Shown here: piece after piece, positions 3,180 to 60,871 of the stretch | Position numbering within the stretch: position 1 is the first letter of the stretch | Layout of the letters: the number at the start of each line of letters is the position of its first letter | Assembly (NCBI RefSeq): GCF_018598225.1 | Contig: NZ_JAHESF010000016.1 | Span: 1-64,000, forward strand | Source of the DNA: Chryseosolibacter histidinae | GTDB taxonomy: Bacteria > Bacteroidota > Bacteroidia > Cytophagales > Cyclobacteriaceae | DNA: 64,000 nucleotides | Reading direction: 5' to 3' | Made by a program: the position numbers and the translations under genes | The notes under the pieces: generated by a model | Told to the model about the DNA's origin: nothing | The model's database searches: none | The model's input: the letters and a program-made list of their open reading frames with translations, nothing else

Positions 3180-3273
3180 TAGGTACGAGGTACGAAATAC
3201 GAGGTACGGCGGTTGCCTACTGCTTCCGATAGCTTCCGGGATTGCCTAATGTCCTTTGCCTACTGCTTACTAT
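3180..3273. repeat. heptamer arrays, AGGTACG and TGCCTAC families
   Basis: Bases 3181-3208 are exactly four 7-bp units: AGGTACG, AGGTACG, AAATACG, AGGTACG. From about 3214 to 3273 a second, more degenerate array repeats TGCCTAC/TGCTTCC/TTGCCTA with occasional one-base slips. Together they fill the whole gap between the recX start and the stop codon of the YcxB-like gene, and the second array runs into that stop codon. The same two families recur elsewhere in the window (33566, 40915, 47711). Function unknown. Confidence 0.8.
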
Positions 3274-3746
3274 TTCACGAGTCCCTTGTTCTTCAAAATG
3301 CTGGTCAGAAATTTCCGTTCGTTGTCGGTATTGAAGATCCTGAAAGGCAGGTGGATCAGCTGGGCCTTGTTCACGAACAGCACAAAGCTGTCTTTGCCGA
3401 TCTCGGCGCGGGTGATCTGATCCCACTTCAGTGGCATTCCTTCGCGCGGATTTATTTTCATCACGATCTGCTGGCTGCTGATCTCGTAAGAGAATTTTTC
3501 GAACAACATCTTGCCTTGCTCCAGTTGCGTGACGCCGTAAAACTGGATCCACCAGAAAAGCAGGTAGAGGCCGAGGCCCACGCCGGCACCGATGAACCAC
3601 CAGATGCTGGGTATCCAGATATAGAAAAGGCAAATGACGAAAGCTGCCGCAGCGGCGATCCATCCCTGTTTCCTGATCACGTTGTTGAACGCAAGGCGTA
3701 TATATGTTTTTTTGTCGAGTTTGTAATTTTTGGTTTTAACGATCAT
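3270..3746 (-). CDS. YcxB-like membrane protein
   Basis: A 158-aa protein with two adjacent hydrophobic segments (about residues 30-48 and 52-72, rich in Trp, Ile and Phe) followed by a soluble domain of about 85 residues. That order, and the C-terminal pattern of a small beta-rich domain with a conserved Trp (KWDQITRAEI) and the ending NERKFLTSILKNKG, fit the YcxB-like family, whose function is unknown. The ATG at 3746 is preferred; the frame is open 135 bp further upstream, but that extension is basic, Cys-rich and overlaps the nadC end region, so it is unlikely to be translated. It is probably an inner-membrane protein with a cytoplasmic domain. Confidence 0.65.
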   Translation of the reverse strand: MIVKTKNYKLDKKTYIRLAFNNVIRKQGWIAAAAAFVICLFYIWIPSIWWFIGAGVGLGLYLLFWWIQFYGVTQLEQGKMLFEKFSYEISSQQIVMKINPREGMPLKWDQITRAEIGKDSFVLFVNKAQLIHLPFRIFNTDNERKFLTSILKNKGLVK

Positions 3747-3802
3747 AAATCTGTATTCACAAGTTAGGGGATCACAGCCAGGGCGATCCTTTATTAAAAT
3801 TT

Positions 3803-4660
3803 CTAAAATGCCTTTAAGCTCAGGTCGAGGCTTTTTACAGAGTGCGTCAGTGCACCGATGGAGATGTAATCCACGCCACATTCGGCAACGCTCCGGATAT
3901 TGGCTTCGGTGATGCCGCCGCTCGCCTCCGTTTTGTATTTGCCGCCGATCAGCCGCACAGCTTCTTTCATGGTGTCGTTATCCATGTTATCGAGCATGAT
4001 CACATCTACGTTCCCGGTTTCCAGCACGGCTTTGACCTCTTCCAGGTTCCGTGTTTCGATCTCGATCTTCAGTTTTTTACCGGTGGCGCGAAGATAATCG
4101 TTTGTACGGTTGATTGCTTCTTTAATTCCTCCCGCCATGTCGATATGATTGTCTTTCAGCATGATCATGTCGTACAAACCGATGCGGTGATTATGGCCCC
4201 CGCCGATCACCACGGCCCATTTTTCAGGCAGCCTGAAGTTGGGGGTTGTTTTGCGTGTATCCAGCAGCTGGCTTCCCGTGCCTTTTACGAGGTTCACGAG
4301 GTGCCGGGTCTTGGTGGCGATCCCGCTCATGCGCTGCATCACGTTCAGCACAAGCCTTTCGGAAGCGAGAATGGATCTTGACAACCCGGAGACGGTGAGC
4401 GCAATATCGCCGGTTTTGATCTCCGAACCGTCTGTAAGCTGCACATCAACCCGCAGGCTCTTGTCTACCGTGTGAAAGATCTTCCAGGCCATCTCCACCC
4501 CGGCCAGTATTCCAGTATCTTTTACCAGGAGCCGGGCGCGGCTTGTGGCGTCTGGCCGGATGGCTGCCAGCGACGAATGGTCACCATCGCCGAGGTCTTC
4601 TTTCAGCGCCGAAGCAATGAACTGCTTCAGAAAATCATCGGTGATATATGCCGGTTTCAC
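3803..4660 (-). CDS. nadC: nicotinate-nucleotide pyrophosphorylase (carboxylating) NadC
   Basis: This enzyme converts quinolinate and PRPP to nicotinate mononucleotide, CO2 and diphosphate in de novo NAD synthesis. The 285-aa sequence has the family hallmarks: RKTTPNFRLPEKWAVVIGGG near residue 136 (substrate-binding Arg and Lys), HNHRIGLYDMIMLKDNH near 156, then EIETRNLEEV, DVIMLDNM and EASGGI in the alpha/beta barrel. The start is a GTG at 4660, giving normal family length. It lies in a minus-strand run behind a DUF4783 gene (102-bp gap). nadA and nadB are not in the window. Confidence 0.96.
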   Translation of the reverse strand: MKPAYITDDFLKQFIASALKEDLGDGDHSSLAAIRPDATSRARLLVKDTGILAGVEMAWKIFHTVDKSLRVDVQLTDGSEIKTGDIALTVSGLSRSILASERLVLNVMQRMSGIATKTRHLVNLVKGTGSQLLDTRKTTPNFRLPEKWAVVIGGGHNHRIGLYDMIMLKDNHIDMAGGIKEAINRTNDYLRATGKKLKIEIETRNLEEVKAVLETGNVDVIMLDNMDNDTMKEAVRLIGGKYKTEASGGITEANIRSVAECGVDYISIGALTHSVKSLDLSLKAF

Positions 4661-4761
4661 CGTGCAAAAATAAATCAGGATTGATCACAATAAAGCCCGC
4701 CTGACAGGTTTACGGGTAAATATTTTAGATAGGAATGCCAGCGCCGGCAGGGAAACAGGCG

Positions 4762-5166
4762 CTATTCTTTGGAAAAAGAGATCTCGTGAAGCAGCTGCTG
4801 GTTGTTGATAGACTTGATCTTCATGAATACCCTGTATACATCGTCACCGCTTTTGTATTGCCCGATGGCAAAAGGCTGGCCTCCCCTGGAGGAACCCTGG
4901 TGAATGATGCCAAATTCGGAAGGAGGATGCTGTTTGAAGAAATCCCTGAAAACAAACTCCGCCTGCGATTTGCTGTACGATTCCACCTTACCCTCTATGG
5001 TAACATCCACCGTTTGATTCAGGTACCTGGAAAGTTCTTTAGCGCTCCCTGCCTTGATGGTCTCCCTGATCATGCCGATAACATCATTTTGCGCCATGGC
5101 GGCAAACACTTGTAAGGTAAGTGCTGCAATGATGACCAGTAACGCCTGTGACCTTTTCTCCTTCAT
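4762..5166 (-). CDS. secreted DUF4783 protein
   Basis: A 134-aa protein with a clear signal peptide (basic MKEKR start, hydrophobic core to about residue 22, cleavage probably after AMA) and a compact alpha+beta domain of about 105 residues resembling the NTF2-like fold of DUF4783. The conserved core contains NQTVDVTIEG, SKSQAEFVFRDFF and the terminal strand LLHEISFSKE. It should be exported to the periplasm. Upstream of nadC on the same strand, it may be co-transcribed with it. Biological role unknown; I can only assign the domain. Confidence 0.75.
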   Translation of the reverse strand: MKEKRSQALLVIIAALTLQVFAAMAQNDVIGMIRETIKAGSAKELSRYLNQTVDVTIEGKVESYSKSQAEFVFRDFFKQHPPSEFGIIHQGSSRGGQPFAIGQYKSGDDVYRVFMKIKSINNQQLLHEISFSKE

Positions 5167-5289
5167 GACAGTGTTTGTTTGCGGCTAAAATTATGCCATT
5201 GTTGAAAGATAAAGAAATTTAAATCATGGCCGTGCTGTTACCGGAAAGGGCAATCTGAGATTCTCCAATAAAATCTTACAATCCATGCC

Positions 5290-5297
5290 TATATTTG
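5290..5297 (+). promoter_or_regulatory. candidate -7 promoter element for gpmI
   Basis: TATATTTG matches the Bacteroidota -7 consensus TAnnTTTG exactly and lies 95 bp before the gpmI ATG. No clear TTTG -33 element stands at the expected distance upstream, so the assignment rests on the -7 element and its position. Confidence 0.45.
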
Positions 5298-5391
5298 CGC
5301 GCTTTGTAAAGGTATGAATTCATTTCTTACATCCTGAAAGGGCTTTTGCGGTGAATTTGAGGCCTTTGTTTGTTGATACTGATTATATCCT

Positions 5392-7501: not shown

Positions 7502-7526
7502 TCAGGCGCGAAGCATCGCGAGAACT

Positions 7527-9314: not shown

Positions 9315-9317
9315 GTA

Positions 9318-9734: not shown

Positions 9735-9796
9735 GGCTGTTACATCTTTTTTAAATCCTTGGGATAAATCATTCGTGTAAGTTTTCGGGATTAAAA

Positions 9797-9804
9797 TATA
9801 TTTG
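9797..9804 (+). promoter_or_regulatory. candidate -7 promoter element for the TerC gene
   Basis: An exact TAnnTTTG match (TATATTTG) in the 148-bp gap between the Fur-type regulator and the TerC gene, 79 bp before its TTG start. It suggests the TerC gene has its own promoter. The rest of this gap shows no gene or terminator that I can support. Confidence 0.45.
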
Positions 9805-16249: not shown

Positions 16250-16282
16250 GGGGTGAAGGAAAGCGCCAAAGATAATAAAAAT

Positions 16283-16437
16283 GGTCCACGGTCGACAGTC
16301 CACTGTCCACGGCCGTGCAGTGTCAAATTACATTGCCTACAAGTACGACGTGCATCGCGATAACTATCGGATACGAAGTACGATTGAGCGACACAAGACT
16401 ATTCCTGCCGTGGACTGTGGACCGTGGTCTGTCGACG
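16283..16437. repeat. inverted heptamer arrays with composite core
   Basis: The left arm (16283-16317) is five 7-bp units: GGTCCAC, GGTCGAC, AGTCCAC, TGTCCAC, GGCCGTG. The right arm (16410-16437) is four units in the opposite sense: GTGGACT, GTGGACC, GTGGTCT, GTCGACG. The arms can pair over about 30 bp. The core holds single pieces of other families: TGCCTAC at 16334, AAGTACGA at 16341 and ATACGAAGTACGA at 16371. It lies between the TerB gene start and the feoB stop; no ORF is credible inside. Confidence 0.85.
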
Positions 16438-21823: not shown

Positions 21824-22221
21824 TCGACCACTACTTCCGCAGGAGTGAAGTCTTCCTTCTTTTTCTTTTTCGTTTTTCTTTTTCGCGTTCCTGCATAGTA
21901 GCCGGCAAACGTCAGTATTGGATACAACGAAACCTTGATCAGTTCTATCAGGAACTGCTCCTTGCCAACGTAAAGACAAAACCCGATAAAGGTCAAAAAC
22001 AGTGTGATAAGCGCATCGGCGATATACGCTATCCTTGTATAGGTTTTTCTCCTTTCCTTTGGCCTTTCCTTGTCAAGCTCAGTCTCGATCTCCATGTACT
22101 TTGAAGACAAATCCCTATTGTGGTCAAGCTCTTTACCTTTGAGTTTGATGCTCTCAGCTTCATTTACAGCCTTCTGATGTTGTGTCTGTAAGAACTGATG
22201 AATAAGGGAATCTGACAACAA
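21820..22221 (-). CDS. small membrane protein of unknown function
   Basis: A 133-aa protein: a charged, Glu/Lys-rich helical N-terminal half (about 60 residues), two hydrophobic segments near residues 65-83 and 92-110, and a strongly basic tail (RKRKTKKKKKEDF). The start is uncertain; TTG at 22221 is the first option after an upstream stop, and no ATG occurs before residue 43. It converges on the PAS sensor gene with a 4-bp overlap. I do not recognise the family. Confidence 0.55.
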   Translation of the reverse strand: MLSDSLIHQFLQTQHQKAVNEAESIKLKGKELDHNRDLSSKYMEIETELDKERPKERRKTYTRIAYIADALITLFLTFIGFCLYVGKEQFLIELIKVSLYPILTFAGYYAGTRKRKTKKKKKEDFTPAEVVVD

Positions 22222-31648: not shown

Positions 31649-33565
31649 ATGAGGATCCTTTTTACTTTTTCCGTTCTGCTGTTGGTATTGCCAGCCCTTG
31701 CGCAGACAGAGTTCTCACTCTACAGGCTCAACGCAAACCTCCCGCAGGCCAATATGCTCAACCCTGCTTTTGCACCCAACAGCAAGTTGACGATAGGACT
31801 GCCCCTGGTGTCATCGATCTACGCTGCCGCGGATAACGACGGCATTGCTTTCCGCGATGTGTTTATGGACAGCGAAAATGATTCGCTCAAGATCGATACC
31901 CTCTCGATCTTCAGCAAGCTCAACCCTTCCAACCGCATCCAGGTCAATGAAGCGATCCAGCTTTTTTATCTCGGGTTGCGTGGACGAAAAGGTTATTTGT
32001 CATTTGCTATTCACCAGGTGCTTGAAATGCGTTTCAATTATCCCGGCGATCTTGCGGGCTGGGCCATCCGCGGTCCGGCGCACCCGGCGTACGTTGGAAA
32101 GTCGCTCGACCTTAGCAATTTCTATAGCCGCAGCGTTGCTTACAATAAAATATCGTTGAACTATGCACGCGATATCACGCCCGAGCTGAGGGTTGGTGCC
32201 CGCTTCAATTACCTGCTCGGCGTCGCCGCGGGAGAATCGACCAGCATCGATGGCAGGCTTACCGTGAACATGGATTCGGTGAACATCCGCACAGGTAATA
32301 TTCATTTCCAGACCGCCGGCATCGACTTCTTCGACCAGGACAACCTGGATGTGAACGATTATAAAACCTATTTTCTCGGCACCAAGAACAAGGGCATGTC
32401 GTGGGACATCGGTGCAACCTACGAGGTTACCAATAACCTCACCGTTTCTGCGGCCATCAATGACCTTGGCTACATCAACTGGAAAGAGTACACACGCTCG
32501 TATCGCGTAGCGCCTGTCAACTATACGTTCAAGGGATTTGACATGCTGGATTACATCAACAAGAAACCGGGCGACGAGTTCCTTCAGGCGGAAGCCGATT
32601 CGCTCGAGAACCTGTTTACGGCTACCGAGACCACGGGCAACAAGTTCAAGACATCGCTGACCGGCAAGTTCTACGCCGGTGTGAATTTCAGGTTGCTGCG
32701 TGTGAACAATTTCAGCGCGCTGGTATACATGGATGTTTTCCATAAAAAGGTGAACCCTGCGCTCAGCCTCGGCTACAACCTGCAGCTCGGCCGCCTGCTC
32801 AACACAACGGTGGGCATAACATACCAGAATGGAAGCATCACCAATATCGGTGCCGGCATAGCCCTGAAGCTGACGCACATGCAGTTCTATGCCACCTCAG
32901 ACCGGGCCAACAGCTTTATCTATCCCGCGCGGGCCAGCAGGGCAGATGCCCACATCGGTATGAACCTGGTATTTGGACGACCCAAGAAGAACCGCGAGAG
33001 CAGCGACAACGATAAGGACAAAGACAAGGAAGAAGAGCCCGAAAAAACACCGGAAGCGCCGAAACCGGATACCGTTGCCCAGCAGCCCCCGGCCATAGAG
33101 CATCAGGTGCCGGTAGACACTACTGCACGTGCAACAGCCGAACCTGCGCAGCCACAACCTGTAGTAACGCAGGAAGAAACCAAAGAACAGGTAACACCAC
33201 CACCGGTTGAAACCCCTGTTACCGAAACACCTTCACCTGTAGTTGAAACGAAGGAGCAACCCGTTCAGCCGGCACCGGAGCCCGCACATGAGACTGTAAA
33301 ACGAGGCGGTCATCGCGATGAGCTTCCCGTAGGACATTACGTGGTGGTGGGCGCGTTCCGTCAGAAGGAAAATGCGGAACGTTACAGCAGGATGCTGCGC
33401 AATAGTGGTTACAATAACAGCTTCGGCTTTGTCACCGTCAAGAATGTGTACTACGTTCACGTGTTCCAATCGGGAGGACTTGACGAAGCACGTAACATGC
33501 GCGATGAATTCCGCAAGCGCTCAGAGTTTCAGTTTGCTGAAAGCTGGGTGTTGAGCGTTGAATAG
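31649..33565 (+). CDS. DUF5723 beta-barrel protein with C-terminal SPOR domain
   Basis: A 638-aa protein. A signal peptide (cleavage near PALAQ) is followed by an outer-membrane barrel-like DUF5723 region to about residue 445 (LNANLPQANMLNPAFAP near the start; AINDLGYINWKEY near 270). A linker of about 110 residues, rich in Pro, Glu, Thr and Val (SDNDKDKDKEEEPEKTPEAP), leads to a C-terminal SPOR domain of about 80 residues (HYVVVGAFRQKENAERYSRML, NVYYVHVFQSG). SPOR domains bind denuded peptidoglycan, so the protein may link the outer membrane to septal cell wall. A heptamer array begins right after the stop. Confidence 0.82.
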   Translation: MRILFTFSVLLLVLPALAQTEFSLYRLNANLPQANMLNPAFAPNSKLTIGLPLVSSIYAAADNDGIAFRDVFMDSENDSLKIDTLSIFSKLNPSNRIQVNEAIQLFYLGLRGRKGYLSFAIHQVLEMRFNYPGDLAGWAIRGPAHPAYVGKSLDLSNFYSRSVAYNKISLNYARDITPELRVGARFNYLLGVAAGESTSIDGRLTVNMDSVNIRTGNIHFQTAGIDFFDQDNLDVNDYKTYFLGTKNKGMSWDIGATYEVTNNLTVSAAINDLGYINWKEYTRSYRVAPVNYTFKGFDMLDYINKKPGDEFLQAEADSLENLFTATETTGNKFKTSLTGKFYAGVNFRLLRVNNFSALVYMDVFHKKVNPALSLGYNLQLGRLLNTTVGITYQNGSITNIGAGIALKLTHMQFYATSDRANSFIYPARASRADAHIGMNLVFGRPKKNRESSDNDKDKDKEEEPEKTPEAPKPDTVAQQPPAIEHQVPVDTTARATAEPAQPQPVVTQEETKEQVTPPPVETPVTETPSPVVETKEQPVQPAPEPAHETVKRGGHRDELPVGHYVVVGAFRQKENAERYSRMLRNSGYNNSFGFVTVKNVYYVHVFQSGGLDEARNMRDEFRKRSEFQFAESWVLSVE

Positions 33566-33637
33566 AAGGTACAAGGTACGAATTACGAGGTACGAGGAAA
33601 TGCAGATCGAGCTACGTATTTCGTACCTCGTATCTAC
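33566..33637. repeat. inverted GGTAC-type heptamer arrays
   Basis: Left arm 33566-33600: AAGGTAC, AAGGTAC, GAATTAC, GAGGTAC, GAGGAAA. Right arm 33612-33637 is opposite in sense: CTACGTA, TTTCGTA, CCTCGTA, TCTACT. An 11-base spacer separates them. The 72 bp run exactly from one stop codon to the stop codon of the convergent hisA-like gene. The inverted arms would form a hairpin in either transcript. Confidence 0.85.
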
Positions 33638-34378
33638 TTACACTTTCTTCACCAGGAATTGCTCCAGGTCGGTGAGCTTCAGCACGCCTTCGTAGAAAGC
33701 TTTGCCGAAGATCACGGCGAAGATGCCCATGTCGTTGAGGCGTTTGATGTCGTCGAGGCCACGTACGCCGCCGCTGGCCAGCACGCATATTTCGGGGAAG
33801 GTATCGATGATCTCTTTGTAGAAATCGAAGGCGGGTCCTTCAAGCACACCATCGCGTGATACATCGGTAGACTTGACGTATTTGAGGCCGCGTGAATAAA
33901 AATAATCGAGGTGTTCGAAGAGGGTCAGCTGCGATCTGCGCTGCCATCCGCGGAAGAGAAGCTCTTTGGTCTCACGGTTGATCACATCGGCGCCGAGAGT
34001 CATTTTTTCGCGACCGTAGGAAATGATCCATGATGCGAAAAGCTCGGGATCCGTTACTGCCACGCTGGCTGCCGTGATGTAATCAGCACCGTATTCGTAG
34101 GCTTTGCTGATATCGCCATCGGTGGAGATGCCACCGGTAAAATCTATTTTGAGATCGGTATGACCTGCAATGGCTTCGAGCACGTGCCAGTTCACAGGAC
34201 TTCCTTTTTCAGCGCCGTCGAGATCAACCAAATGCACCACTTCAATGCCATGATCTTCGAAACGTTTCGCGAGGTCAAGCGGATTTTCATCGTAAGCCTT
34301 CTCGCTCGTAGGATCGCCCTTACGCATTTTTACAACGTTACCTTTCCGGATGGCTATAGATGGAATTACCTGGATCAT
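33638..34378 (-). CDS. HisA-like (beta/alpha)8 isomerase paralogue lacking the catalytic Asp
   Basis: A 246-aa TIM-barrel protein similar to HisA (ProFAR isomerase of histidine synthesis). It keeps VVHLVDLDGAEKG near residue 46, the phosphate-binding ASGGVRGLDDI and FGKAFYEG, and STDVSRDGVLEGP with a conserved Asp near 167. However, the first strand reads IPSIAI where HisA proteins have IPAIDL-like sequence: the catalytic Asp is Ala9. The usual GGGI at strand three is TGGI. The enzyme may therefore have changed or lost activity. No other his gene is in the window. The family is certain; the function is not. Confidence 0.82.
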   Translation of the reverse strand: MIQVIPSIAIRKGNVVKMRKGDPTSEKAYDENPLDLAKRFEDHGIEVVHLVDLDGAEKGSPVNWHVLEAIAGHTDLKIDFTGGISTDGDISKAYEYGADYITAASVAVTDPELFASWIISYGREKMTLGADVINRETKELLFRGWQRRSQLTLFEHLDYFYSRGLKYVKSTDVSRDGVLEGPAFDFYKEIIDTFPEICVLASGGVRGLDDIKRLNDMGIFAVIFGKAFYEGVLKLTDLEQFLVKKV

Positions 34379-37612: not shown

Positions 37613-38845
37613 ATGTTGCACAGGTACCTGATTGTTGCGTTCTTCGTTTTTTGCTCGTTTCAGGGCTATAGCCAGGCATTGGGCTTTTCGCTGGCCGATG
37701 GAAAAACCAAGGTTCAGATACCCATCGAGATCTACAACAACCTCATTGTGGTGCCCGTGGTGCTCAATGGCGCGTTGCCCCTGAAGTTCATACTCGATAC
37801 CGGCGTGCGCACGGCCATTCTTACGCAAAAGTCATTCACAGACATCCTGAATTTATCGTACTCGCGGAAGTACACCATCTCCGGCCCGGGTGGTGAAAAG
37901 CTGGTAGACGCCTACGTTACCAACAACGTTTCGCTCGAGCTGCCGGGCGTGCTGGGGCGGGGGCATGCGCTGCTGGTGCTGGAAGAAGATTACCTGGAAC
38001 TGCGAAACTATCTGGGTACCGATGTGCACGGCATTCTCGGTTACGAGCTGTTCAGCAGGTTCATTGTGCAGGTGAACTATGAAAAAAAGTTGCTGACGCT
38101 GATGTTGCCGCAACGGTTCAAGATGAAACGGAAATTTCACGCGGTGCCTATACGCATTGAAGATACGAAACCCTATATCACCACACCCATTGTGCTGGCG
38201 GATGGCACCCAGCTTACCGCGAAATTGTTGATGGATTCGGGTGCAAGCCACGGCCTGATGCTTGACCCCGGCTCCGACTCCAGGATCGAAGTACCCGAAA
38301 AGGTGGTGAGCAGCGTGATCGGCCGTGGGCTGGGAGGTGAGATCACCGGTAAGGTGGGGCGCATCAAGGCGTTGCACATGGGACCTTACCAACTGGAGAA
38401 CCTCATCGCCAATTTTCCTGACCCTAACAGTTATTTCGATAGTTTGAAAACGGGCGCCACGCCGCGCAACGGATCCATCGGCGGTGAATCGTTAAGCCGT
38501 TTTACCGTGATCTTCAATTTTCCGAAAGAAGAGATCTACCTCAAGAAGAACCATGCGTTCAAAAAAGGATTTCATTATAACCTCAGCGGACTCACTGTAA
38601 AAGCAAAAGGTTCGAGCCTGAATGTGTTCGAGATCACGGAAGTAAGAAGGGAGTCTGTTGCAGACCGCGCCGGCATCAAGGAAGGCGATATCCTTGTCAC
38701 CATCAACGGCATGCCGGCCAGCCAGATCGACCTGAACGTGATCAATGCCTTGTTCAACTACAAACCACGGAAGAAGATCAACCTCACCTTAGACCGGAAG
38801 GGCCAGCGAATGAAAGTGGATTTCAGGCTGGAGGACCAGATTTAA
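37613..38845 (+). CDS. exported retropepsin-like aspartyl protease with PDZ domain
   Basis: A 410-aa protein with a signal peptide, then two retroviral-type aspartyl protease halves: KFILDTGVRTAIL (catalytic DTG near residue 62) and KLLMDSGASHGLML (DSG near 206). A PDZ domain follows at about 330-405 (VFEITEVRRESVADRAGIKEGDILVTINGM). Such clan AA proteases in Bacteroidota are periplasmic or surface-facing; the PDZ domain may recognise substrate C-termini. Both catalytic Asp residues are present. The heptamer/longer-unit composite repeat begins right after the stop. Confidence 0.85.
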   Translation: MLHRYLIVAFFVFCSFQGYSQALGFSLADGKTKVQIPIEIYNNLIVVPVVLNGALPLKFILDTGVRTAILTQKSFTDILNLSYSRKYTISGPGGEKLVDAYVTNNVSLELPGVLGRGHALLVLEEDYLELRNYLGTDVHGILGYELFSRFIVQVNYEKKLLTLMLPQRFKMKRKFHAVPIRIEDTKPYITTPIVLADGTQLTAKLLMDSGASHGLMLDPGSDSRIEVPEKVVSSVIGRGLGGEITGKVGRIKALHMGPYQLENLIANFPDPNSYFDSLKTGATPRNGSIGGESLSRFTVIFNFPKEEIYLKKNHAFKKGFHYNLSGLTVKAKGSSLNVFEITEVRRESVADRAGIKEGDILVTINGMPASQIDLNVINALFNYKPRKKINLTLDRKGQRMKVDFRLEDQI

Positions 38846-39219
38846 ATGCAGGTTCACGCAAAGCCCAAATACAGGTTCACGCAAAGCCCACAAAGAAGAC
38901 GCAAAGCCCGCAAAGTTTTTTTTTAACCGCAGAGAACGCTGAGGAGCCGCAGAGGGCCGCAGAGATATTTTTAAACTGTTCTTGAAAGAGCATAGCGAAC
39001 CTTTCCTCTGAAACCCGTTATCCTGAAGCGACGCAGGTGTGATCGCATGTGGGAGCGAAGGATCCCAAGGTCGCTTACTGCGTACTTAATTCGAGCGCAT
39101 GGCACGTCGTAGGCACGCTGTCAAATGGGGATCCTTCATTCGCGCATGCCAATGCTCAAACCGCCATTCAGGATGACGACGAAAACGAAACGCTCCTTTG
39201 CGATCTTTGTGTTATGCGT
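38846..39219. repeat. nested composite repeat element
   Basis: This 374-bp convergent gap has three layers. Outer: CACGCAAAGCCCA-type units (38849-38915, including a 19-bp unit repeated at 38849 and 38872) facing an inverted CTTTGCGATCTTTGTG (39196-39218). Middle: CGCAGAG-type units (38928-38964). Inner: two oppositely oriented copies of a roughly 50-bp motif, ATCCTGAA to GAAGGATCCC (39019-39065) and GGGGATCCTTC to TTCAGGAT (39127-39174). No credible gene lies inside. The outer arms run from one stop codon to the other. Confidence 0.8.
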
Positions 39220-39806: not shown

Positions 39807-40916
39807 TTGAGAAACGCAATTATTGTCGGGGGTGGCCTTGCGGGCCTTGTTTCGGGAATCCAGCTTTCAATGGCTGGAATTCCGTGTCTGCTCATTGAAA
39901 AAAAATCGTACCCGCATCATCGCGTATGCGGTGAATATATTTCAAACGAAGCAGTGCCTTTTTTAAAGAGACTGGGGCTGTATCCTGATGAATTTTCTCC
40001 CCCTCAGATCAATCGGTTTCAATTATCATCGGTAACCGGACGCCACGCCACGATTCCGCTCGATATGGGAGGTTTCGGCATCAGCAGATTTACATTCGAT
40101 CATTATCTCTATCAAAAAGCAAAAGCGTGTGGCGTTAACTGTATGCTCAACACGGAAGTCACCGATGTTCGTTTTCAGGGCGAAAAATTCACGATCAGTA
40201 CTCAGGTAAAAAATTTTGAAGCCGATGTGGTGATCGGTGCCTTCGGAAAAAGATCCAAACTCGACCTAACAATGGGCCGGAGATTCATTACAAAACGATC
40301 TCCCTATGCCGCCATCAAGTACCACATCCGCACAGATCACCCTGCAAACCTGATCGCACTGCACAATTTCAGGGACGGATATTGCGGTATCAGCAATGTG
40401 GAGGACGGAAAGACCAACCTGTGCTACCTCACGCACCGCAATAACCTGCGAAAAACTGGCAGCATTGCCTCGCTGGAAAAGGAAATCCTTCAAAAAAATA
40501 ATTTACTCAAGTATGTTTTCTCCAATTCCGAATTCCTTTTTGAAAAACCGGAAGTGATCAACGAGATCTCCTTTGCAACCAAAGATCCGGTGGAAGGTCA
40601 TGTACTCATGGCAGGAGACGCCGCCGGCATGATCACCCCGTTATGTGGTAATGGCATGGCGATGGCCCTGCACAGCTCGAAAGTGGTCAGTGCGCTGGTG
40701 ATTCAATATTGCAGGGCAGAGATCACCCGGACGCAACTTGAAAAGATGTACTCCGACCAATGGAACGTAAAATTCGCGAACCGGCTGAGAACCGGCCGCC
40801 GGATCCAGAAACTTTTCGGCAACGCCCTGCTTTCAAACGCTGCGGTGAACCTCGCGCTCTATTCAAGACCGGTTGCCGATCTCATTGTGCGCCAGACGCA
40901 TGGAGAAGAGTTTTGA
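39807..40916 (+). CDS. FAD-dependent oxidoreductase, geranylgeranyl-reductase type
   Basis: A 369-aa flavoprotein with an N-terminal dinucleotide motif IIVGGGLAGLVSGIQL, then HHRVCGEYISNEAVPFL near residue 38 and the second FAD motif GHVLMAGDAAGMITPLCGNGMA near 264. These are the marks of the geranylgeranyl-reductase / aromatic-hydroxylase-like group. The start is a TTG at 39807; a nearby ATG is out of frame and ends at once. Context with type III PKS, UbiA and methyltransferase genes suggests it oxidises or reduces the polyketide or its prenyl chain. The stop overlaps the first base of a heptamer array. Confidence 0.9.
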   Translation: MRNAIIVGGGLAGLVSGIQLSMAGIPCLLIEKKSYPHHRVCGEYISNEAVPFLKRLGLYPDEFSPPQINRFQLSSVTGRHATIPLDMGGFGISRFTFDHYLYQKAKACGVNCMLNTEVTDVRFQGEKFTISTQVKNFEADVVIGAFGKRSKLDLTMGRRFITKRSPYAAIKYHIRTDHPANLIALHNFRDGYCGISNVEDGKTNLCYLTHRNNLRKTGSIASLEKEILQKNNLLKYVFSNSEFLFEKPEVINEISFATKDPVEGHVLMAGDAAGMITPLCGNGMAMALHSSKVVSALVIQYCRAEITRTQLEKMYSDQWNVKFANRLRTGRRIQKLFGNALLSNAAVNLALYSRPVADLIVRQTHGEEF

Positions 40917-40989
40917 GGTACGATTTACGAGGTACGAAGTACGATTGCCTGATCATGGTTTTCCTGCTGTGGTCTGTGGACGGTGGACT
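40915..40989. repeat. GGTAC- and GTGGACT-type heptamer arrays
   Basis: First array 40915-40949: GAGGTAC, GATTTAC, GAGGTAC, GAAGTAC, GATTGCC, beginning inside the stop codon of the oxidoreductase gene. Second array 40969-40989: GTGGTCT, GTGGACG, GTGGACT. The two families are not inverted copies of each other here. They occupy most of the 121-bp gap before the sugar isomerase gene. Confidence 0.8.
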
Positions 40990-41037
40990 GTTTCAAAATA
41001 ATCTTTAACTTCCGTCACCTTAAAACTAAACCGAATT

Positions 41038-42012
41038 ATGAATCGTATTGAATTTTTGAGATCGCTCGGTCTCATCACGGTGAGCACAGCTGCGGGTGGT
41101 ACCTTTCTTTCTTCCTGCGCAGGCAAACAATCATCAGAAACGCAAGCCGATACTACGGCAACGGCTGAGACGGCGAAACCCAAAGAGTTGTTTTTCAAGA
41201 TCTCGCTGGCAGAGTGGTCGCTGCACAAGACCCTGTTCGAAGGCAAGCTCACCAACCTCGACTTTCCCGCCAAGGCTAAAAACGACTTCGGTATCTCTGC
41301 GGTAGAATATGTGAACCAGTTCTTCAAAGACAAAGCCAAAGACCAGCCGTACCTGGCAGACCTGAAAAAACGCTGTGACGACAACGGTGTTACCAGTGTG
41401 CTCATCATGATCGATGGTGAAGGCGGCCTGGGCGACACGAACAAAACAAAAAGAAACACCGCCGTGGAGAATCACAAGAAGTGGGTGGATGCCGCCAAAT
41501 TTCTCGGATGCCATTCTATCCGTGTGAATGCTTATGGCGAGGGCTCACGTGAAGAGGTTGCCAAAGCTGCCACTGACGGCCTTCGAGCGCTCTCTGAATT
41601 TGCCAAAGGATCGAACATCAATGTGATCGTTGAGAACCATGGCGGATACTCATCCGATGGCCAGTGGCTGAGCCAGGTGATCTCCAACACGCAGATGCAG
41701 AACTGTGGCACCCTTCCCGACTTCGGCAATTTCTGCCTCGTAAGAGAAAAAGATACCTGCAAAGAGGAGTACGACCGCTATAAGGGTATTACAGAAATGA
41801 TGCCCTTCGCCAAAGGTGTCAGCGCGAAGGCCCACGAGTTTGACGCACAGGGCAACTGCATCGAGACTGACTACACCAAGATGCTGCCCATCGTGAAAAG
41901 TGCCGGATACACGGGTTACATCGGCATCGAGTATGAAGGCAGCAGGCTCTCTGAAGATGAAGGCATCCGCGCCACTAAAGCGTTGCTGGAACGCGTTGGA
42001 ATGATGGTCTAG
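41038..42012 (+). CDS. exported sugar phosphate isomerase/epimerase (TIM barrel)
   Basis: A 324-aa protein. The N-terminus ([20 protein letters not shown], then FLSSCAG) combines a Tat-like or lipoprotein signal with Cys near residue 27. The mature part is a xylose-isomerase-like TIM barrel: [37 protein letters not shown] near 164, [14 protein letters not shown] near 198 and [16 protein letters not shown] near 301, holding the Glu/His metal ligands. The substrate is unknown. It interrupts the PKS locus and has heptamer arrays on both sides. Confidence 0.82.
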
Positions 42013-42101
42013 TTTCTAACTAGCTTCTAGTCTTTAGCTGCGAGCTTCGAGGCGTTACGGGTCCGTCTCGCAGCTCGCAGCTAACAACTCAAGACTCTCT
42101 C
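42013..42101. repeat. inverted TAGCTTC/CTCGCAG heptamer arrays
   Basis: Left arm from 42014: TTCTAAC, TAGCTTC, TAGTCTT, TAGCTGC, GAGCTTC, GAGGCGT. Right arm from 42067, opposite in sense: CTCGCAG, CTCGCAG, CTAACAA, CTCAAGA, CTCTCTC. An 11-base spacer divides them. The element reaches from the sugar isomerase stop to the stop codon of the convergent ubiA-type gene, with no other DNA left over. Confidence 0.85.
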
Positions 42102-46489: not shown

Positions 46490-46521
46490 TTGACAATTGA
46501 CAAACTGGCAATTGACAATTT
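46490..46521. repeat. TTGACAA heptamer array, left arm of the S23 element
   Basis: Units TTGACAA (46490), TTGACAA (46497), ACTGGCA (46504) and ATTGACA (46511), then ATTTAGG. It begins on the base after the DUF4097 stop codon and ends inside the stop codon of the minus-strand S23 gene, so it joins the two genes end to end. Confidence 0.85.
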
Positions 46522-46906
46522 AGGAGCCAACAACTTTGCGGGAGTATTTTTTCGGATTTTCGATCATGTGATTTAAAAGCTTTCCCACCTCGACGGCTTT
46601 TGATTCAAGATCAGTGTAACGGTCTTGATCGATGTATTTGAAAGCGAGGGCGAAATCCAACCACACACGGGTCTCAGTATTCTCCATGTCAGCATCTGAT
46701 GACTTGCTGACGAAGTAAGCTTCATATTGCCGTTTACGATAAGCTTCGCCAATGCACGCGGATACTGTTCTCGAAGAACGCCTTATCTGATCCGTCAGTC
46801 CATACCTCTCTTCTTTCGGAAAAGTCTTCGAAATCTCAAAAATCTCAATCGCCAGCTGAAAAGCTTTTTTATAGACAGTCAAATCCCTGAAGTTTTTCCC
46901 ACCCAT
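46520..46906 (-). CDS. four-helix-bundle S23 protein (23S rRNA intervening-sequence type)
   Basis: A 128-aa all-helical protein of the S23/IVP family, first known from intervening sequences inside 23S rRNA genes and structurally related to Avd of diversity-generating retroelements. Diagnostic parts: NFRDLTVYKKAFQLAIEIFE, FPKEERYGLTDQIRRSSRTVSACIGEAYRKR near residue 38 and DMENTETRVWLDFA near 78. Here it is not in an rRNA gene. The ATG at 46906 is preferred; a TTG 12 bases upstream lies inside the array. It is framed by inverted TTGACAA arrays, one touching each end. No reverse transcriptase or template repeat is seen nearby. Molecular function unknown. Confidence 0.88.
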   Translation of the reverse strand: MGGKNFRDLTVYKKAFQLAIEIFEISKTFPKEERYGLTDQIRRSSRTVSACIGEAYRKRQYEAYFVSKSSDADMENTETRVWLDFALAFKYIDQDRYTDLESKAVEVGKLLNHMIENPKKYSRKVVGS

Positions 46907-46939
46907 TGTCAATTGCAATTTTGTCTATTGTCAATTTTT
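46905..46939. repeat. TTGTCAA heptamer array, right arm of the S23 element
   Basis: Units ATTGTCA (46905), ATTGCAA (46912), TTTTGTC (46919), TATTGTC (46926) and AATTTTT (46933), inverted relative to the left arm at 46490. It begins inside the S23 start codon and ends at the stop codon of the next gene. Any promoter of the S23 gene must lie within this array or in the downstream gene. Confidence 0.82.
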
Positions 46940-47703
46940 TATATGTCACACAACTTAATCGCTGCACTCAACGATGCCAGGGGATCCGCCTTGCTGGGAA
47001 TGAACTCCTGGGCTACGTGACCTTTGAATCCGGTTTCGGCAATGGCTTTCATGATGGCGGGGTAGTAGAGTTCCTGTGATTCGTCGATCTCATGACGGCC
47101 CGGAACACCCCCGGTGTGATAGTGGGCTATATAATTTTTGTATTTTCTGATGGTGGCGATCACGTCACCTTCCATGATCTGCATGTGATAAATATCGTAG
47201 AGCAGCTTGAAGTTCTCCGAGCCGAGCTTTTCACACAAGCTGGCGCCCCATGCGGTGTGGTCGCACTGATAATCCTTGTGGTCCACCTTGCTGTTGAGCA
47301 GCTCCATAACGATGGTGATGTTATACTTTTGGGCAAGCTTCAATACCGGCTCCAGGCCCCTGGCACAATTCTCGATCCCCTGCTCATCGCTTAGCCCGTT
47401 CCTGTTGCCAGAAAAACAGATCAGGTTCTTCAGGCCAGCGTCTGCCGCTTTGGGGATGGCCACCGAATATTCCTTCAGGAACTGCGCATGCAGCGACGGA
47501 TCGTTGAATCCTTTGGTGAGGCCAACGGGGCTTCCGTAACCCATGGCACAGGTAAGGCCCTGCTTGATCACTACGGGCCACTGATCAGCATTTAAAAGAT
47601 CGATAGAGGAGATGCCCATGCCCTTGGCGGCGCGGGTTAATTCTTCTAACGGAATGGAGCTGTAGCACCATTGGCAAACGGAGTGATTGATGTTTCCTTT
47701 CAT
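46939..47703 (-). CDS. hydroxypyruvate isomerase-like TIM-barrel protein
   Basis: A 254-aa cytoplasmic TIM barrel of the hydroxypyruvate isomerase / xylose-isomerase-like family. Visible parts: HSVCQWCYSSIPLEELTRAA near the start, NLICFSGNRNGLSDEQG near residue 93, IVMELLNSKVDHKDYQCDHT near 131 with the conserved Glu, KLLYDIYHMQIMEGD near 166 and HVAQEFIPSKADP near 230 with the late Glu. The Glu/Asp/His residues would bind the metal. No signal peptide, unlike the relative at 41038. Heptamer arrays lie on both sides. Confidence 0.85.
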   Translation of the reverse strand: MKGNINHSVCQWCYSSIPLEELTRAAKGMGISSIDLLNADQWPVVIKQGLTCAMGYGSPVGLTKGFNDPSLHAQFLKEYSVAIPKAADAGLKNLICFSGNRNGLSDEQGIENCARGLEPVLKLAQKYNITIVMELLNSKVDHKDYQCDHTAWGASLCEKLGSENFKLLYDIYHMQIMEGDVIATIRKYKNYIAHYHTGGVPGRHEIDESQELYYPAIMKAIAETGFKGHVAQEFIPSKADPLASLSAAIKLCDI

Positions 47704-47710
47704 GTTAAAT

Positions 47711-47873
47711 AGTAGGCAGTAGGCAAACCCCGATAAATTATCGGGGCAATAGGCAATTGGTCAGTGTAAACGTAAGATACAAGTTCCAATTCGAATTGAA
47801 ACCGGGTTCGGCAAAACCCTGGCGTCGCTTTGCCTACTGTCTCATTGCCTACTGCCTACTCTCACCCTGCCTA
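47711..47873. repeat. inverted TGCCTAC heptamer arrays with CCCCGATAA hairpin
   Basis: Left arm: AGTAGGC (47711), AGTAGGC (47718), later CAATAGG, CAATTGG (47747). Right arm from 47831, opposite in sense: TGCCTAC, TGTCTCA, TTGCCTA, CTGCCTA, CTCTCAC, CCTGCCT. Between them lies a perfect hairpin CCCCGATAA-A-TTATCGGGG (47728-47746) and a smaller AATTCGAATT palindrome near 47788. It occupies most of the 296-bp gap between two divergent genes; the remaining 126 bp before corA shows no further structure that I can support. Confidence 0.8.
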
Positions 47874-55378: not shown

Positions 55379-55407
55379 GTTGTAAAAAACCTAATGATAA
55401 TAATGAA

Positions 55408-55436
55408 GCCCCGGTTCTGCCGGGGTTTTGTTTTTT
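55408..55436 (+). terminator. Rho-independent terminator after the fusion protein gene
   Basis: CCCCGG (55409-55414), loop TTCTG, CCGGGG (55420-55425), then TTTTG and six T residues. It lies about 30 bp after the stop and before the TonB receptor gene. Confidence 0.88.
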
Positions 55437-55542
55437 ACGGGGGTATCTTTTTGCAACGGATGTTTCGCTATATTAGTAAAACGTTATCCGCACCCTGGAC
55501 CCGAACAGGGAATGAATTTCATTTCCATTAAAACCCCTCAGT

Positions 55543-57759: not shown

Positions 57760-57816
57760 GGGCAAGATCACAAATCCGGAACCTTCGTCTTATCTTCGGC
57801 CCAAACTTGCGCGGCC

Positions 57817-59449: not shown

Positions 59450-59520
59450 GGAATTGCCAGTTCTTTAATTCAGAGCCCGAAGAACAGCAATTATTTTTCT
59501 CCGTAAAAATGATTTTTGAT

Positions 59521-59537
59521 AACTAAAATAATTAGTT
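59521..59537. promoter_or_regulatory. dyad in a divergent promoter region
   Basis: AACTAA-AATAA-TTAGTT is a perfect inverted repeat of 6-bp arms, in the 230-bp AT-rich gap between the divergent PLP enzyme and radical SAM genes. Overlapping TAGTTTTA resembles a -7 element. A regulator site for one or both genes is possible. Nothing else is seen in this gap. Confidence 0.3.
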
Positions 59538-59679
59538 TTATATCTCTAATCAAATTAGCCGTTCAAGCTTGTGCCTTTCCTCCCGGGTAGTTTTGTGCTT
59601 GCCCGCTGAAGTGCTTTTGCACGAAGGAGGGGGGCCGAGAAACGAAAGCGCTATCTATTTTTTTAAAGATCACGCAGCG

Positions 59680-60744
59680 ATGGAGAATACAGAAGACGAA
59701 GGATATTTTAAAGGCCGCGGTGCCCAGATCAAAACGGAGAACAGGTTTCTGAAAGCCAAATACGTTGCTGAGCACGTTGAAGGGTTGGATGAACCTTTGC
59801 TTTCAGCGCCCACCACGCAGGTGTTTCATGAAAGCCCGAAGAATATTGTCAACAAGGTGACCAGCCCCGACCTGGGTATGATGTACTCTATGAATCCGTA
59901 CCAGGGCTGCGAACATGGCTGCATCTATTGTTATGCCCGCAACACACACGAGTACTGGGGTTTCAGCGCAGGACTTGATTTTGAATCGAAGATCATCGTT
60001 AAGAAAAACGCACCCCAGCTGCTTGAAAAATTTCTGATGAATCCAAACTGGGATCCCGTACCCATTTCCGTTTCAGGCAACACGGACTGTTATCAGCCAT
60101 TGGAGCGGCAGTTCGAGATCACGCGCAACATTCTTAAAGTGTTTGCTAAGTACAGGCACCCACTGGGTATGATCACCAAAAACGGGCTGGTGCTCAGAGA
60201 CCTCGATCTGCTCAAAGATCTCGCGCAGGACAACCTGGTGCATGTTTACATTTCTATCACCACACTCGATGAAGAGCTGCGAAGGGTGATGGAGCCGCGC
60301 ACAGCCAGCGCTATCAAAAGATTAAAGACCGTGGAGGCGCTTGCAAAGGCAGGTGTGCCCGTAGGCATTATGAATGCGCCCATCATTCCGGGACTCAATC
60401 ATCATGAAATTCCGCAAGTATTGAAAGAAGCATCCAACCATGGCGCATTGGCCGCAGGCATGACGGTGGTCAGGCTCAACGGTGCTATCGGCAAGATCTT
60501 TGAAGACTGGCTTCGAAAAAATTTCCCCGACCGCTTCGACAAGGTTTGGAACCAGATCTGCTCCATGCACGGCGGCACTGTCAACGATTCACAGTTCGGG
60601 CGGCGCATGGGCGGTGAAGGCAACTTCGCGGAAACCATCCACCAGCTCTTTACTGTCTCCAGGAAAAAATATTTCGGTGATAAAAAAATGCCGGCCATCG
60701 ATCTCACCAAATTCAGGCGAGGTGGGAACCTGAGTCTGTTTTAG
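59680..60744 (+). CDS. radical SAM protein, PA0069 family
   Basis: A 354-aa radical SAM enzyme. The 4Fe-4S motif is NPYQGCEHGCIYCYARN near residue 75, followed by SVSGNTDCYQPLERQFEITR near 130, MITKNGLVLRDLDLL near 164 and ITTLDEELRRVMEPR near 190. This fits the PA0069 (spore-photoproduct-lyase-like) group, with no established substrate. The ATG at 59680 (MENTEDEGYFKGRGAQI) is chosen because conserved family sequence begins there; the longer frame to 59569 is not conserved in appearance. A heptamer array starts right after the stop. Confidence 0.88.
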   Translation: MENTEDEGYFKGRGAQIKTENRFLKAKYVAEHVEGLDEPLLSAPTTQVFHESPKNIVNKVTSPDLGMMYSMNPYQGCEHGCIYCYARNTHEYWGFSAGLDFESKIIVKKNAPQLLEKFLMNPNWDPVPISVSGNTDCYQPLERQFEITRNILKVFAKYRHPLGMITKNGLVLRDLDLLKDLAQDNLVHVYISITTLDEELRRVMEPRTASAIKRLKTVEALAKAGVPVGIMNAPIIPGLNHHEIPQVLKEASNHGALAAGMTVVRLNGAIGKIFEDWLRKNFPDRFDKVWNQICSMHGGTVNDSQFGRRMGGEGNFAETIHQLFTVSRKKYFGDKKMPAIDLTKFRRGGNLSLF

Positions 60745-60871
60745 CTGTGAGCTTTAGCCGCGAGACATTAAGAGTCGGCTTAGTTTGTACTTCACTTGTA
60801 GCTCAAAGCACATAACGCAGCCGTCTCTGTCATGACTATCAACCTCACTGCAGTGGACTGTCGACCGTGGA
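60745..60871. repeat. composite heptamer arrays filling a convergent gap
   Basis: Left part 60745-60779: CTGTGAG, CTTTAGC, CGCGAGA, CATTAAG, AGTCGGC (TAGC/GAGC family, as at 42014). An inverted partner around 60797-60821 is weak (TTGTAGCTCAAAGC, then ACGCAGCC). Right part 60852-60872: AGTGGAC, TGTCGAC, CGTGGAC (GTGGACT family, as at 16410). The 127 bp run exactly from the radical SAM stop codon to the dipeptidase stop codon. Confidence 0.75.

Follow-up and report, generated by a model that had tools for sequence, protein, structure and literature searches.

The window analysed here, a 64-kb stretch of DNA from the genome referred to as G000, contains a series of short degenerate tandem arrays, which we located by TRF, direct reading and a lag scan in which a place counted as strong when at least 15 of 21 positions matched at lag 7. 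The scan returned strong lag-7 places at 3175-3211, 16280-16315, 16407-16437, 33561-33599, 40914-40947, 40964-40994 and 42064-42097, together with an eighth match, at 21851-21884, that is a low-complexity TTCTTT run. Weaker arrays at 33607-33642, 46490-46520, 46905-46950, 47697-47726 and 47831-47861 were identified by TRF and by 13-14/21 matches, a threshold at which unrelated places in the window come up too. Most of the arrays form inverted pairs (16281/16407, 33561/33608, 42033/42064, 46490/46905 and 47698/47831), and the TTGACAA pair at 46490/46905 encloses a gene; the original prediction, which had described nine loci of unrelated units, mostly with a strict 7-bp period, mentioned neither feature.

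Four of these pairs are gene-free and fold as hairpins, with all arms given here on the plus strand. The first joins a GTCCACG array at 16281..16312 (TRF) to a GTGGACT array at 16407..16437 (TRF, lag scan; fold z -3.4). The second, in a gap between convergent genes, joins an AGGTACG array at 33561..33599 (TRF) to its inverse at 33608..33635 (lag scan; z -5.7). A third, also in a convergent-gene gap, has a TAGCTTC/GAGCTGC left arm at 42009..42058 (TRF, direct reading) and a CTCGCAG right arm at 42064..42097 (TRF, lag scan; z -6.6), and the fourth has an AGTAGGC left arm at 47697..47726 (TRF, lag scan) and a TGCCTAC right arm at 47831..47873 (TRF; z -5.0). Arrays without an inverted partner are found as well, on the same strand: an AGGTACG array at 3178..3209 (TRF) adjoins a recX-like gene, and a second at 40914..40947 (TRF) is followed at 40964..40994 by a GTGGACT array (TRF, lag scan) that belongs to another family and forms no hairpin with it. 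Folding gave no hairpin in the regions at 3175 and 40913 (z 0.8 and -0.4), and no known RNA family was found by Rfam at gathering scores anywhere in the window.

Arrays were thus recovered at or near the places originally listed, except at 60745, where TRF reported nothing at score 30 and the scan gave no lag-7 match at 13/21. By eye, this locus consists of two short pieces roughly 110 bp apart, the first AGCTGTG and the second GTGGACT; a candidate pair at 60775 was rejected as not being a true inverted pair. The locus of CGCAAAG/CGCAGAG units at 38844..39213 (no strand assigned) does have longer periods, as had been claimed (23 and 9-10 by TRF at 38844-38964), but it belongs to a separate dispersed repeat that matches about 40 places in this genome, and we do not claim it for the heptamer system.

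The gene within the TTGACAA pair lies on the minus strand at 46520..46906 (ATG at 46906, stop at 46520-46522) and encodes a four-helix-bundle protein of 128 aa that matches PF05635 (S23, "23S rRNA intervening-sequence protein", hereafter IVP) and bAvd (PF22296, E 4.6e-10). In the sense of the gene, its 5' arm of TTGACAA-type heptamers lies at the start codon (46905..46938, minus strand; TRF, direct reading, arm SW score 45), and its 3' arm of inverted TTGACAA heptamers fills the space that separates the IVP stop from that of a convergent DUF4097 gene (46490..46520, plus strand; TRF, direct reading). The two arms pair in the RNA fold (z -2.9), so these terminal inverted repeats form a stem around the ORF. 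The element sits between two protein genes and not inside a 23S rRNA; three 23S motifs, allowed one mismatch, gave a single match among the IVP loci scanned, in the flank of L008.

An AlphaFold model of the window IVP (pLDDT 85) matches 2RLD, 2GSC and the Avd structure 4DWL. The protein also matches 2RLD and 2GSC, each of which has five chains, by sequence, and its fold matches Avd 4DWL, the DGR ribonucleoprotein (RNP) 8UBE and related entries at TM 0.71-0.74. The likeness to DGR Avd, which works in an RNP, is one of fold; unlike in a DGR, there is no partner reverse transcriptase, as PF00078 (RVT_1) gave no match in G000, and we rejected reverse transcription in trans on this ground.

Lag counts were compared with random sequence, with the rest of the genome and with relatives. 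At the strong threshold, the window held 8 lag-7 places against 0-4 for each remaining lag from 4 to 14, and 100 first-order Markov sequences gave a mean of 0.34 and a maximum of 2. A 400-kb sample (5%) of G000 contained 7.8 lag-7 arrays per 100 kb and 4.8 at lag 14, with each other lag from 4 to 16 at 0.5 or less, and by extrapolation from such a sample the gene-free arrays number in the hundreds in some lineages, that of G000 among them. Just 3 of 54 arrays lay within called ORFs, though intergenic DNA makes up only 10%. None of the window arrays has an equivalent in G002, a syntenic congener, in which the gap orthologous to the 42009 hairpin is 19 bp long and lacks the hairpin, the gap orthologous to that of the IVP element lacks the element, and array families differ, as they do between species. 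The genome-wide excess, the intergenic bias and the difference in units and positions between congeners are the outcomes that the original prediction expected of its three checks. Lag-7 arrays were absent from 200 kb of two IVP-free relatives, and also from 100 kb each of two IVP-bearing genomes (G049 and G038).

No transposition event was seen, and differences in presence between congeners could reflect loss rather than gain. By eye, no target-site duplication was obvious at five syntenic gaps, none of which offered an empty site alignable base by base. An IVP element that appears old occupies the mraZ-rsmH gap in G000, G019, G035 and G002; in this gap, the distance to the rsmH motif is 7-23 nt in 16 of 30 family loci.

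S23/IVP genes are present in 232 of 296 sampled Bacteroidota genomes. We assembled 130 distinct IVP loci, after excluding L020 for an internal stop, L041 and L052 because their IVP frame could not be recovered, and the duplicates L065 and L132, and used 127 for association counts after removing three with short flanks. Inverted arms with SW of at least 24 were found at 102 of these 127 loci (5 after shuffling), with 25 below the threshold, and lag-7 arrays of at least 15/21 at 86 (2 after shuffling). Both features occurred together at 73/127 IVPs and at 1/179 size-matched control ORFs, which taken separately had arms in 6 cases and lag-7 arrays in 18. The next commonest period was 8 (15 loci versus 3 shuffled), and 42 of 149 loci had no clear period. 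The period is therefore not universally 7, since some IVPs have 8-bp units; in the window and in the 400-kb sample, lag 7 stands out. Five of the seven IVPs of G000 have arms by score; at L004, in the same genome, arms are visible by eye only (SW 19 or 15), and at L008 the array is one-sided.

Within the 102 loci above the arm threshold, arm similarity increased with protein identity (Mantel rho 0.31, 0/999). Arms matched in all 9 pairs above 80% protein identity. For the 94 pairs at 60-80% the share was 57%, falling to 10% at 50-60%, 4% at 40-50% and 1% or less below; with arms in opposite orientation, no match occurred among the 103 pairs above 60%. In 27 pairs at 70-80% protein identity, four-fold sites were saturated (34% identical), yet 21-nt arm stretches were 83% identical, as compared with 55% in distant pairs. 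Related IVPs thus have a common heptamer even when their four-fold synonymous sites have reached saturation, and every unit family is associated with particular IVPs. At some IVPs octamers replace heptamers, and on a protein tree of 106 of the 149 rows (those with a clear period) the octamer label clustered loosely, with 11 changes against a shuffled mean of 15.2 (2/500 as low). An in-register arm test (85/93) is biased, because the aligner picked the register.

Degenerate heptamers might instead arise by themselves through slippage, with IVP genes as bystanders. The accessible text of PMC4692102 cites such a hypothesis for heptameric repeats of bacteria, based on the roughly 7 nt that DNA polymerase contacts. 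Slippage would suit unrelated units that share a 7-bp period, variable lengths and long perfect runs such as that at L292, but it predicts neither inverted pairs around one gene family, nor unit-protein coupling at saturated synonymous sites, nor octamers tied to some IVPs, nor the lack of arrays in the two IVP-free relatives. Slippage is already disfavoured, and we regard it as very improbable.

The gene-free arrays, a set from which those of the window's own IVP were excluded, matched the IVP arms of their own genome in 37 of 54 cases in G000 and 37 of 44 in G002. Across genomes, 19 G000 arrays matched G002 arms, 14 of them through one family common to both, and 7 G002 arrays matched G000 arms. 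In the window, the GTCCACG type recurs in the arms of the G000 IVPs L006 and L007, and AGTAGGC is the unit of the arms of L014 and L015 in congeners. Units are copied within a family: one AGGTACG pattern had 286 sites against 0 for its reversed control. A single cause for unrelated units, as originally proposed, is accordingly supported in the form of one protein family, but the idea that heptamers are made rather than copied is contradicted by this copying and by the tie of units to particular IVPs.

AGGTACG, the commonest pattern of the window, has no IVP partner in this assembly, so a resident cognate is not required for an array to exist. Searching with a profile built from four divergent IVPs (A3) recovered already known IVPs only, which led us to reject a hidden partner, and a gene within AGGTACG loops was rejected because the pattern-delimited loops, at 8-91 nt, are too short (30 of the 286 sites were taken as loci and 12 viewed). 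Among 16 hairpin interiors of at least 30 nt, about half from one unit family, no similarity was found; such mostly unrelated interiors are unlike those of an ordinary MITE, and MITE-like shared interiors were rejected. Short loop motifs are common to a few AGGTACG hairpins. One of the 16 interiors (L180:14986-15418) contains an ordinary 4HBT gene, another is that of the false pair at 60775, and the L182 interior shows weak similarity to IVP by tblastn (36% over 44 aa, E 0.003), which we did not regard as proving a remnant. By eye, arrays of one family sit in hairpin loops of another at L291 and L299.

In our view, the heptamer arrays probably serve as recognition arms in small elements of a widespread class, comprising an IVP gene with cognate array arms and many gene-free derivatives. 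The architecture, the protein-unit coupling, the match of gene-free arrays to resident IVPs and the positional difference between congeners support this directly. In a full element, an IVP/S23 gene of about 120 codons would be enclosed by a pair of inverted arrays with about 4-6 degenerate 7-bp (some 8-bp) units, mostly in sense between two co-directional genes; the unit would be common to related IVPs and maintained by selection along with the protein. Hairpins and single arrays that lack the gene would be non-autonomous derivatives or remnants. We infer the remaining steps, namely binding, ring stoichiometry, RNA processing, and mobility with its enzymology. Most probably, an IVP homopentamer of Avd fold would bind single-stranded RNA or DNA, each ring taking one array and each protomer about one unit. 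Median arm lengths of 4.79 units (162 7-bp arms) and 4.75 units (30 8-bp arms) suggest such a fit of about 4-5 units to a pentamer. Counting against five units per ring are the scatter of unit counts (middle half 4.3-6.1, tail to 20), the 3.6-4.4 copies that TRF gave the strong window arrays, and the preference of Xanthomonas and Nostoc heptamer repeats for four units described in the available parts of PMC4692102. The two arms would pair into a hairpin in the transcript, as in the 23S rRNA intervening sequence cut by RNase III, and such pairing would make insertion within an operon tolerable. The bound complex might then permit copying of the element, and of cognate gene-free copies in trans, to new gaps via host enzymes; S23 elements carrying heptamer ends are probably mobile.

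A regulatory role without mobility is a less probable account, to which we give a small but real share. Here IVPs would be RNA-binding proteins, and the arrays would act within operons as terminators or as elements for processing or stability. Selection and recombination would have spread them, and the flanking arms would be autoregulatory. The sense orientation of 103 of 119 IVP genes between co-directional ORFs and the hairpins at the gene-free window pairs would be expected from it, as would the excision of the 23S intervening sequence by RNase III (in the text available from PMC4990558) and the excess of convergent gaps among array gaps in G000 (13/38 vs 42/250), hardly seen in G002 (5/22 vs 30/194). 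However, array positions are not common to congeners, families differ between species and arrays nest inside other hairpins, a combination typical of a selfish element.

Another enzyme could move the arrays, with the IVP as passenger or accessory. RAYT/REP and REPIN systems are small intergenic hairpins tied to one gene family, each member with its own repeat, and in this they resemble the elements described here; REPs lack heptamer periodicity, RAYT is a Y1 nuclease whose classic substrate is a hairpin, and for IVP, by contrast, which is a four-helix bundle, no enzymatic activity is known. G000 has four Y1_Tnp genes, and IVP has no obvious catalytic residues. A heptamer hairpin, however, lies near one Y1 locus only (L208), on one side, where a different palindromic repeat adjoins the Y1 gene; no Y1 transposase flanked by the repeat was found in G000, and unit identity tracks the IVP. 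With this one-sided neighbour among four loci, we rejected Y1/RAYT as the mover, and the account is improbable, more so than regulation though less so than slippage.

We interpret the IVP elements as relatives, placed between genes, of the 23S rRNA intervening sequence (IVS). According to the accessible sections of PMC4990558, S23p-bearing IVSs occur in Coxiella, Leptospira and Brucella; that of Coxiella (428 nt) holds its S23p ORF in the loop of a 28 bp terminal inverted-repeat stem, with upstream tandem GACAGAT heptamers that vary in number between strains and are handled there as a local feature, and the function of S23/IVP proteins is stated as not known. Both kinds thus share, as far as those sections go, the protein family, a similar size, an ORF between terminal inverted repeats and tandem heptamers, whereas the elements here lie between protein genes and have many protein-coupled unit families and gene-free derivatives. 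Heptamers in the Coxiella IVS were already known, and the link outside 23S rRNA is new in so far as the literature covered, which included few subscription papers or preprints, joins S23/IVP to heptamer arrays nowhere else; the text of a CPR rRNA-insert paper (PMC11270868) lacked the terms sought.

Cyanobacterial STRRs, the Nostoc and Xanthomonas repeats GGGGA(C/T)T and GGGAATC (PMC4692102, PMC2670836) and TAACTGA repeats (PMC4679880) resemble our arrays, in the parts of these sources available, as intergenic degenerate heptamers with a four-unit preference, hairpins and variability between relatives. Unlike our arrays, none of them has a protein partner named in those parts, and the texts of PMC4679880 and PMC4692102 contain no S23 or four-helix term.

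To our knowledge, degenerate heptamer repeats have served in typing and, in cyanobacteria, have been debated for decades with no agreed cause. Heptamer arrays as the ends of S23 elements would link two old puzzles of bacterial genomes, would make both testable by one binding assay wherever a repeat family is tied to specific IVPs, and, if true, would explain the period of 7 (sometimes 8) and the roughly four to five copies; the IVP-unit pairs form a natural protein-sequence series for a recognition code. In TRAP-type proteins, an RNA-binding ring contacts one short-period repeat unit per protomer, and by analogy only the IVP ring might work likewise. A bolder extension, towards which we are somewhat sceptical, is that these are mobile elements of a new class, whose ends are read by their own pentameric ring protein although it has no enzyme domain. 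In TRAP-like fashion, each protomer would take one heptamer or one octamer, and the protein-to-heptamer code could evolve; heptamer repeats across bacteria (STRRs, GGGAATC, TAACTGA) would then be ring footprints, and the 23S rRNA intervening sequence a special landing site.

The comparison with STRRs, already part of the original prediction, is strengthened by IVP loci on plasmids. Among 19 such loci, not all of them independent, inverted arms (SW of at least 24) occurred in 15, including 13 of the 17 from cyanobacteria, and 14 of the 15 also exceeded their own best of 10 shuffles. As inverted heptamer arms accompany IVPs on plasmids of cyanobacteria, STRRs may, on the evidence of these plasmid loci, be of the same class. 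Many of the heptamer arms of the cyanobacterial-plasmid IVPs are G-rich.

The original prediction placed degenerate short tandem arrays, mostly of 7-bp period, at nine intergenic loci of the window, and heptamer arrays were confirmed at or near these positions by TRF and direct reading, save that the locus at 60745 was reported by neither scan of the window and that 38844-38964 proved to be part of a different dispersed repeat. A lag scan of the window at a threshold of 15 matches in 21 returned eight lag-7 arrays, including one low-complexity run. The expectation was 0.34 (100 Markov sequences, maximum 2), and each other lag gave 0-4 arrays; the arrays at 46490, 46905, 47697 and 47831 are weaker than this strong set. 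The genome-wide excess at lag 7 was borne out: in 400 kb of the C. histidinae assembly (G000; 8.04 Mb, 122 contigs) there were 7.8 arrays per 100 kb at lag 7, 4.8 at lag 14 and at most 0.5 at each remaining lag from 4 to 16. The corresponding densities in a syntenic congener (G002) were 9.0 at lag 7, 3.5 at lag 14, 1.25 at each of lags 8 and 15, 0.75 at lag 16 and at most 0.5 at the remainder. Arrays were likewise largely intergenic, just 3/54 in G000 and 4/41 in G002 falling inside called ORFs. The sequence at 38844-39213 is a piece of a dispersed 200-350 bp repeat with CGCAAAG/CGCAGAG units and a GGGAGCGAAGGATCC motif, which has at least about 40 matching places in G000 (71-89% identity, many partial) and is not present at the corresponding site of G002.

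What had been missed is that the majority of arrays form one arm of an inverted pair. In the window, the TTGACAA pair at 46490/46905 flanks a single enclosed gene (46520..46906, minus strand), which codes for an S23 / 23S rRNA intervening-sequence protein (IVP; PF05635). G000 has seven IVP genes and, as read by eye, heptamer arrays of differing units adjoin each of them (GTTTAAA, AGGAGTC, GAGCTGC, TTGACAA, GTGGACT and ACCGATC); GTGGACT arms belong to two IVPs whose proteins are related to each other, and the ACCGATC array lies on a single side, next to a decayed IVP copy. Complementary arms were recovered by an aligner in 5/7 (arm-alignment score, SW, 37-56), while those of L004, an element positioned between mraZ and rsmH, showed complementarity at chance level. 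The IVP of L007 splits the genes for the two parts of methionine synthase, with a homocysteine S-methyltransferase on one side and a pterin-binding domain on the other; the array appears to supply the C-terminal end of the former.

The generality of this association was assessed at 132 usable IVP loci from genus, family and named genomes (130 non-duplicate, 127 with full flanks), the named loci being a biased sample of IVPs as a whole, since the query came from one subfamily. Inverted arms (SW of at least 24, within 200 nt) were found at 102 of the 127 loci versus 5 after shuffling, lag-7 arrays at 86 versus 2, and lag-8 arrays at 15 versus 3; the remaining lags below 14 gave at most 6, and lags 14-16 appear as multiples. 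Among 179 size-matched real ORFs, 6 had inverted arms and 18 had lag-7 arrays, 16 of these 18 coming from the array-rich G000 and G002. Arms and a lag-7 array occurred together at 73/127 IVPs, compared with 1/179 control ORFs. IVPs are present in 232/296 Bacteroidota genomes, and one IVP query matched 25 plasmid records, 23 of them cyanobacterial; 15 of the 19 plasmid loci fetched had arms at SW of at least 24, and 14 of these 15 also beat their own 10 shuffles.

Some IVPs have conspicuous neighbours. In L256 and L266, both on cyanobacterial plasmids, an IVP with array arms has cas6 on one side and cas4 on the other (the CRISPR genes of L266 are annotated as type I-D); in L260, also on a cyanobacterial plasmid, such an IVP is flanked by cas10 and cmr3 (type III-B), and the plasmid IVP of L253 has ribonucleotide reductase genes on both sides. 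Loci from two genera (L035 in G029, L042 in G045) carry an IVP pair separated by about 1.6-1.8 kb, in which a thiolase gene (Pfam) lies, and pairs at comparable spacing occur in several further family genomes.

Across 102 elements, arm similarity tracks protein identity (Mantel rho 0.31, 0/999 permutations). Arms matched in 9/9 pairs above 80% protein identity. Of the 94 pairs at 60-80%, 57% matched, and the share fell to 10% at 50-60%, 4% at 40-50% and at most 1% below 40%; no match in opposite orientation was seen among the 103 pairs above 60%. Neutral common descent is a poor explanation of these matches, because in the 27 pairs at 70-80% protein identity only 34% of four-fold degenerate sites agree, whereas the best 21-nt stretches of the arms agree at 83% of positions (55% for pairs at 20-40%). 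Within one family, units keep some positions constant and vary at others: in arrays chosen by similarity to the consensus, positions 2 and 4 of GTGGACT were constant in 62/62 units (16 arrays), and positions 1, 2, 4 and 5 of AGGAGTC in 18/18 (4 arrays). Agreement between the two arms was 0.85 in register versus 0.72 in the best alternative register (better in 85/93), a comparison biased by the aligner's own choice of register. Of 149 loci labelled by period, 88 were heptameric, 16 octameric and 3 of another kind, and 42 had no clear period, the octamer label clustering loosely on the protein tree (11 changes; shuffled mean 15.2, 2/500 as low).

The predicted structure of the window IVP (pLDDT 85) matches the S23 proteins 2RLD and 2GSC (the latter being XCC0516), each with five chains per entry, and also Avd, both alone and within the DGR ribonucleoprotein. 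A Xanthomonas S23 protein is reported as a homopentamer (PMC4990558), and the median heptamer arm has 4.79 units (162 arms, middle half 4.3-6.1), the median octamer arm 4.75 (30 arms). Five protomers, together with some 4-5 units per arm in 7- and 8-bp units alike, suggest that each protomer reads one unit, although five-unit arms fit less well with the TRF copy counts of the arrays here (3.6-4.4) and with the four units reportedly preferred in Nostoc and Xanthomonas heptamer repeats (PMC4692102).

Its gene and inverted termini place the window element among S23-type intervening elements, here outside rRNA. Two features parallel the 23S rRNA intervening sequence: the IVP gene lies in sense orientation between co-directional ORFs (103/119, by a longest-ORF proxy), and a hairpin encloses the IVP ORF in the predicted RNA fold of the element. 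The rRNA sequence is reported to be taken out by RNase III, and that of Coxiella to have tandem heptamers at its 5' end (PMC4990558). We propose that the IVP would bind the array, that the element transcript may undergo RNA processing and that the element may transpose. A search of G000 for RVT_1 genes gave no match, and the Y1 transposases of this genome showed no link to arrays comparable to that of IVPs. Published descriptions of similar repeats present STRRs as 7-bp repeats able to form hairpins, of unknown function (PMC2670836); for the Nostoc and Xanthomonas repeats, G-quadruplexes are discussed, slippage is cited and the role is left unassigned (PMC4692102), and the Beggiatoa TAACTGA paper contains none of the terms S23, four-helix or intervening (PMC4679880).

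Arrays without an enclosed IVP were compared with IVP arms at SW of at least 26. Of 54 such gene-free arrays in G000, 37 match an arm of one of that genome's own IVPs and 19 match arms of G002, 14 of the 19 through one family common to both (L002/L016); in G002, 37/44 match its own arms and 7/44 those of G000. No lag-7 arrays were found in 200 kb of two IVP-free relatives, nor in 100 kb each of G049 and G038; the latter two bear IVPs and therefore gene-free arrays multiply in some lineages only.

Contig C5 of G002 is colinear with the window (28 blocks, 65-83% identity), and the comparison at orthologous gaps that the original prediction proposed showed a difference in array position: 0/8 called window arrays lie in an aligned block or have an array at the G002 gap. 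The arrays at 21851 and 33561 fall within segments (4.5 and 3.7 kb) wholly missing from G002; the window IVP element and the 47711/47831 hairpin also have no counterpart at their sites in G002. Three of four arrays called in the G002 block lie at places without an array in the window, and the fourth occupies the same gap as the window's IVP element with a different unit. Between mraZ and rsmH, 16/30 family loci have a gap of 7-23 nt from the stop codon of mraZ to the motif of rsmH, and an IVP element occupies this site in G000, G002, G019 and G035. Its arms vary from species to species, with complementarity present in G002 and G019, 15 nt long in G035 and barely detectable in G000. Set against the array differences between window and G002, these elements indicate that IVP elements can be old at a site and that gene-free arrays turn over fast, whether by gain or by loss in a given case.

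The AGGTACG family has 286 pattern sites (reversed control, 0), and no IVP partner for it was found in the G000 assembly. The 16 interiors of gene-free pairs examined showed no similarity to each other; a short motif is common to a few AGGTACG loops, and loops of one array family contain arrays of another (L291, L299). At L208:1243-2106, a RAYT-type Y1-transposase-domain gene adjoins a GGAAGTTACTTCCG palindromic repeat (by eye), with an AGGTACG hairpin directly downstream of the gene. At L180:14955-15460, the gene surrounded by ACCGAAT-type inverted arrays codes for a 4HBT thioesterase and not for an IVP.
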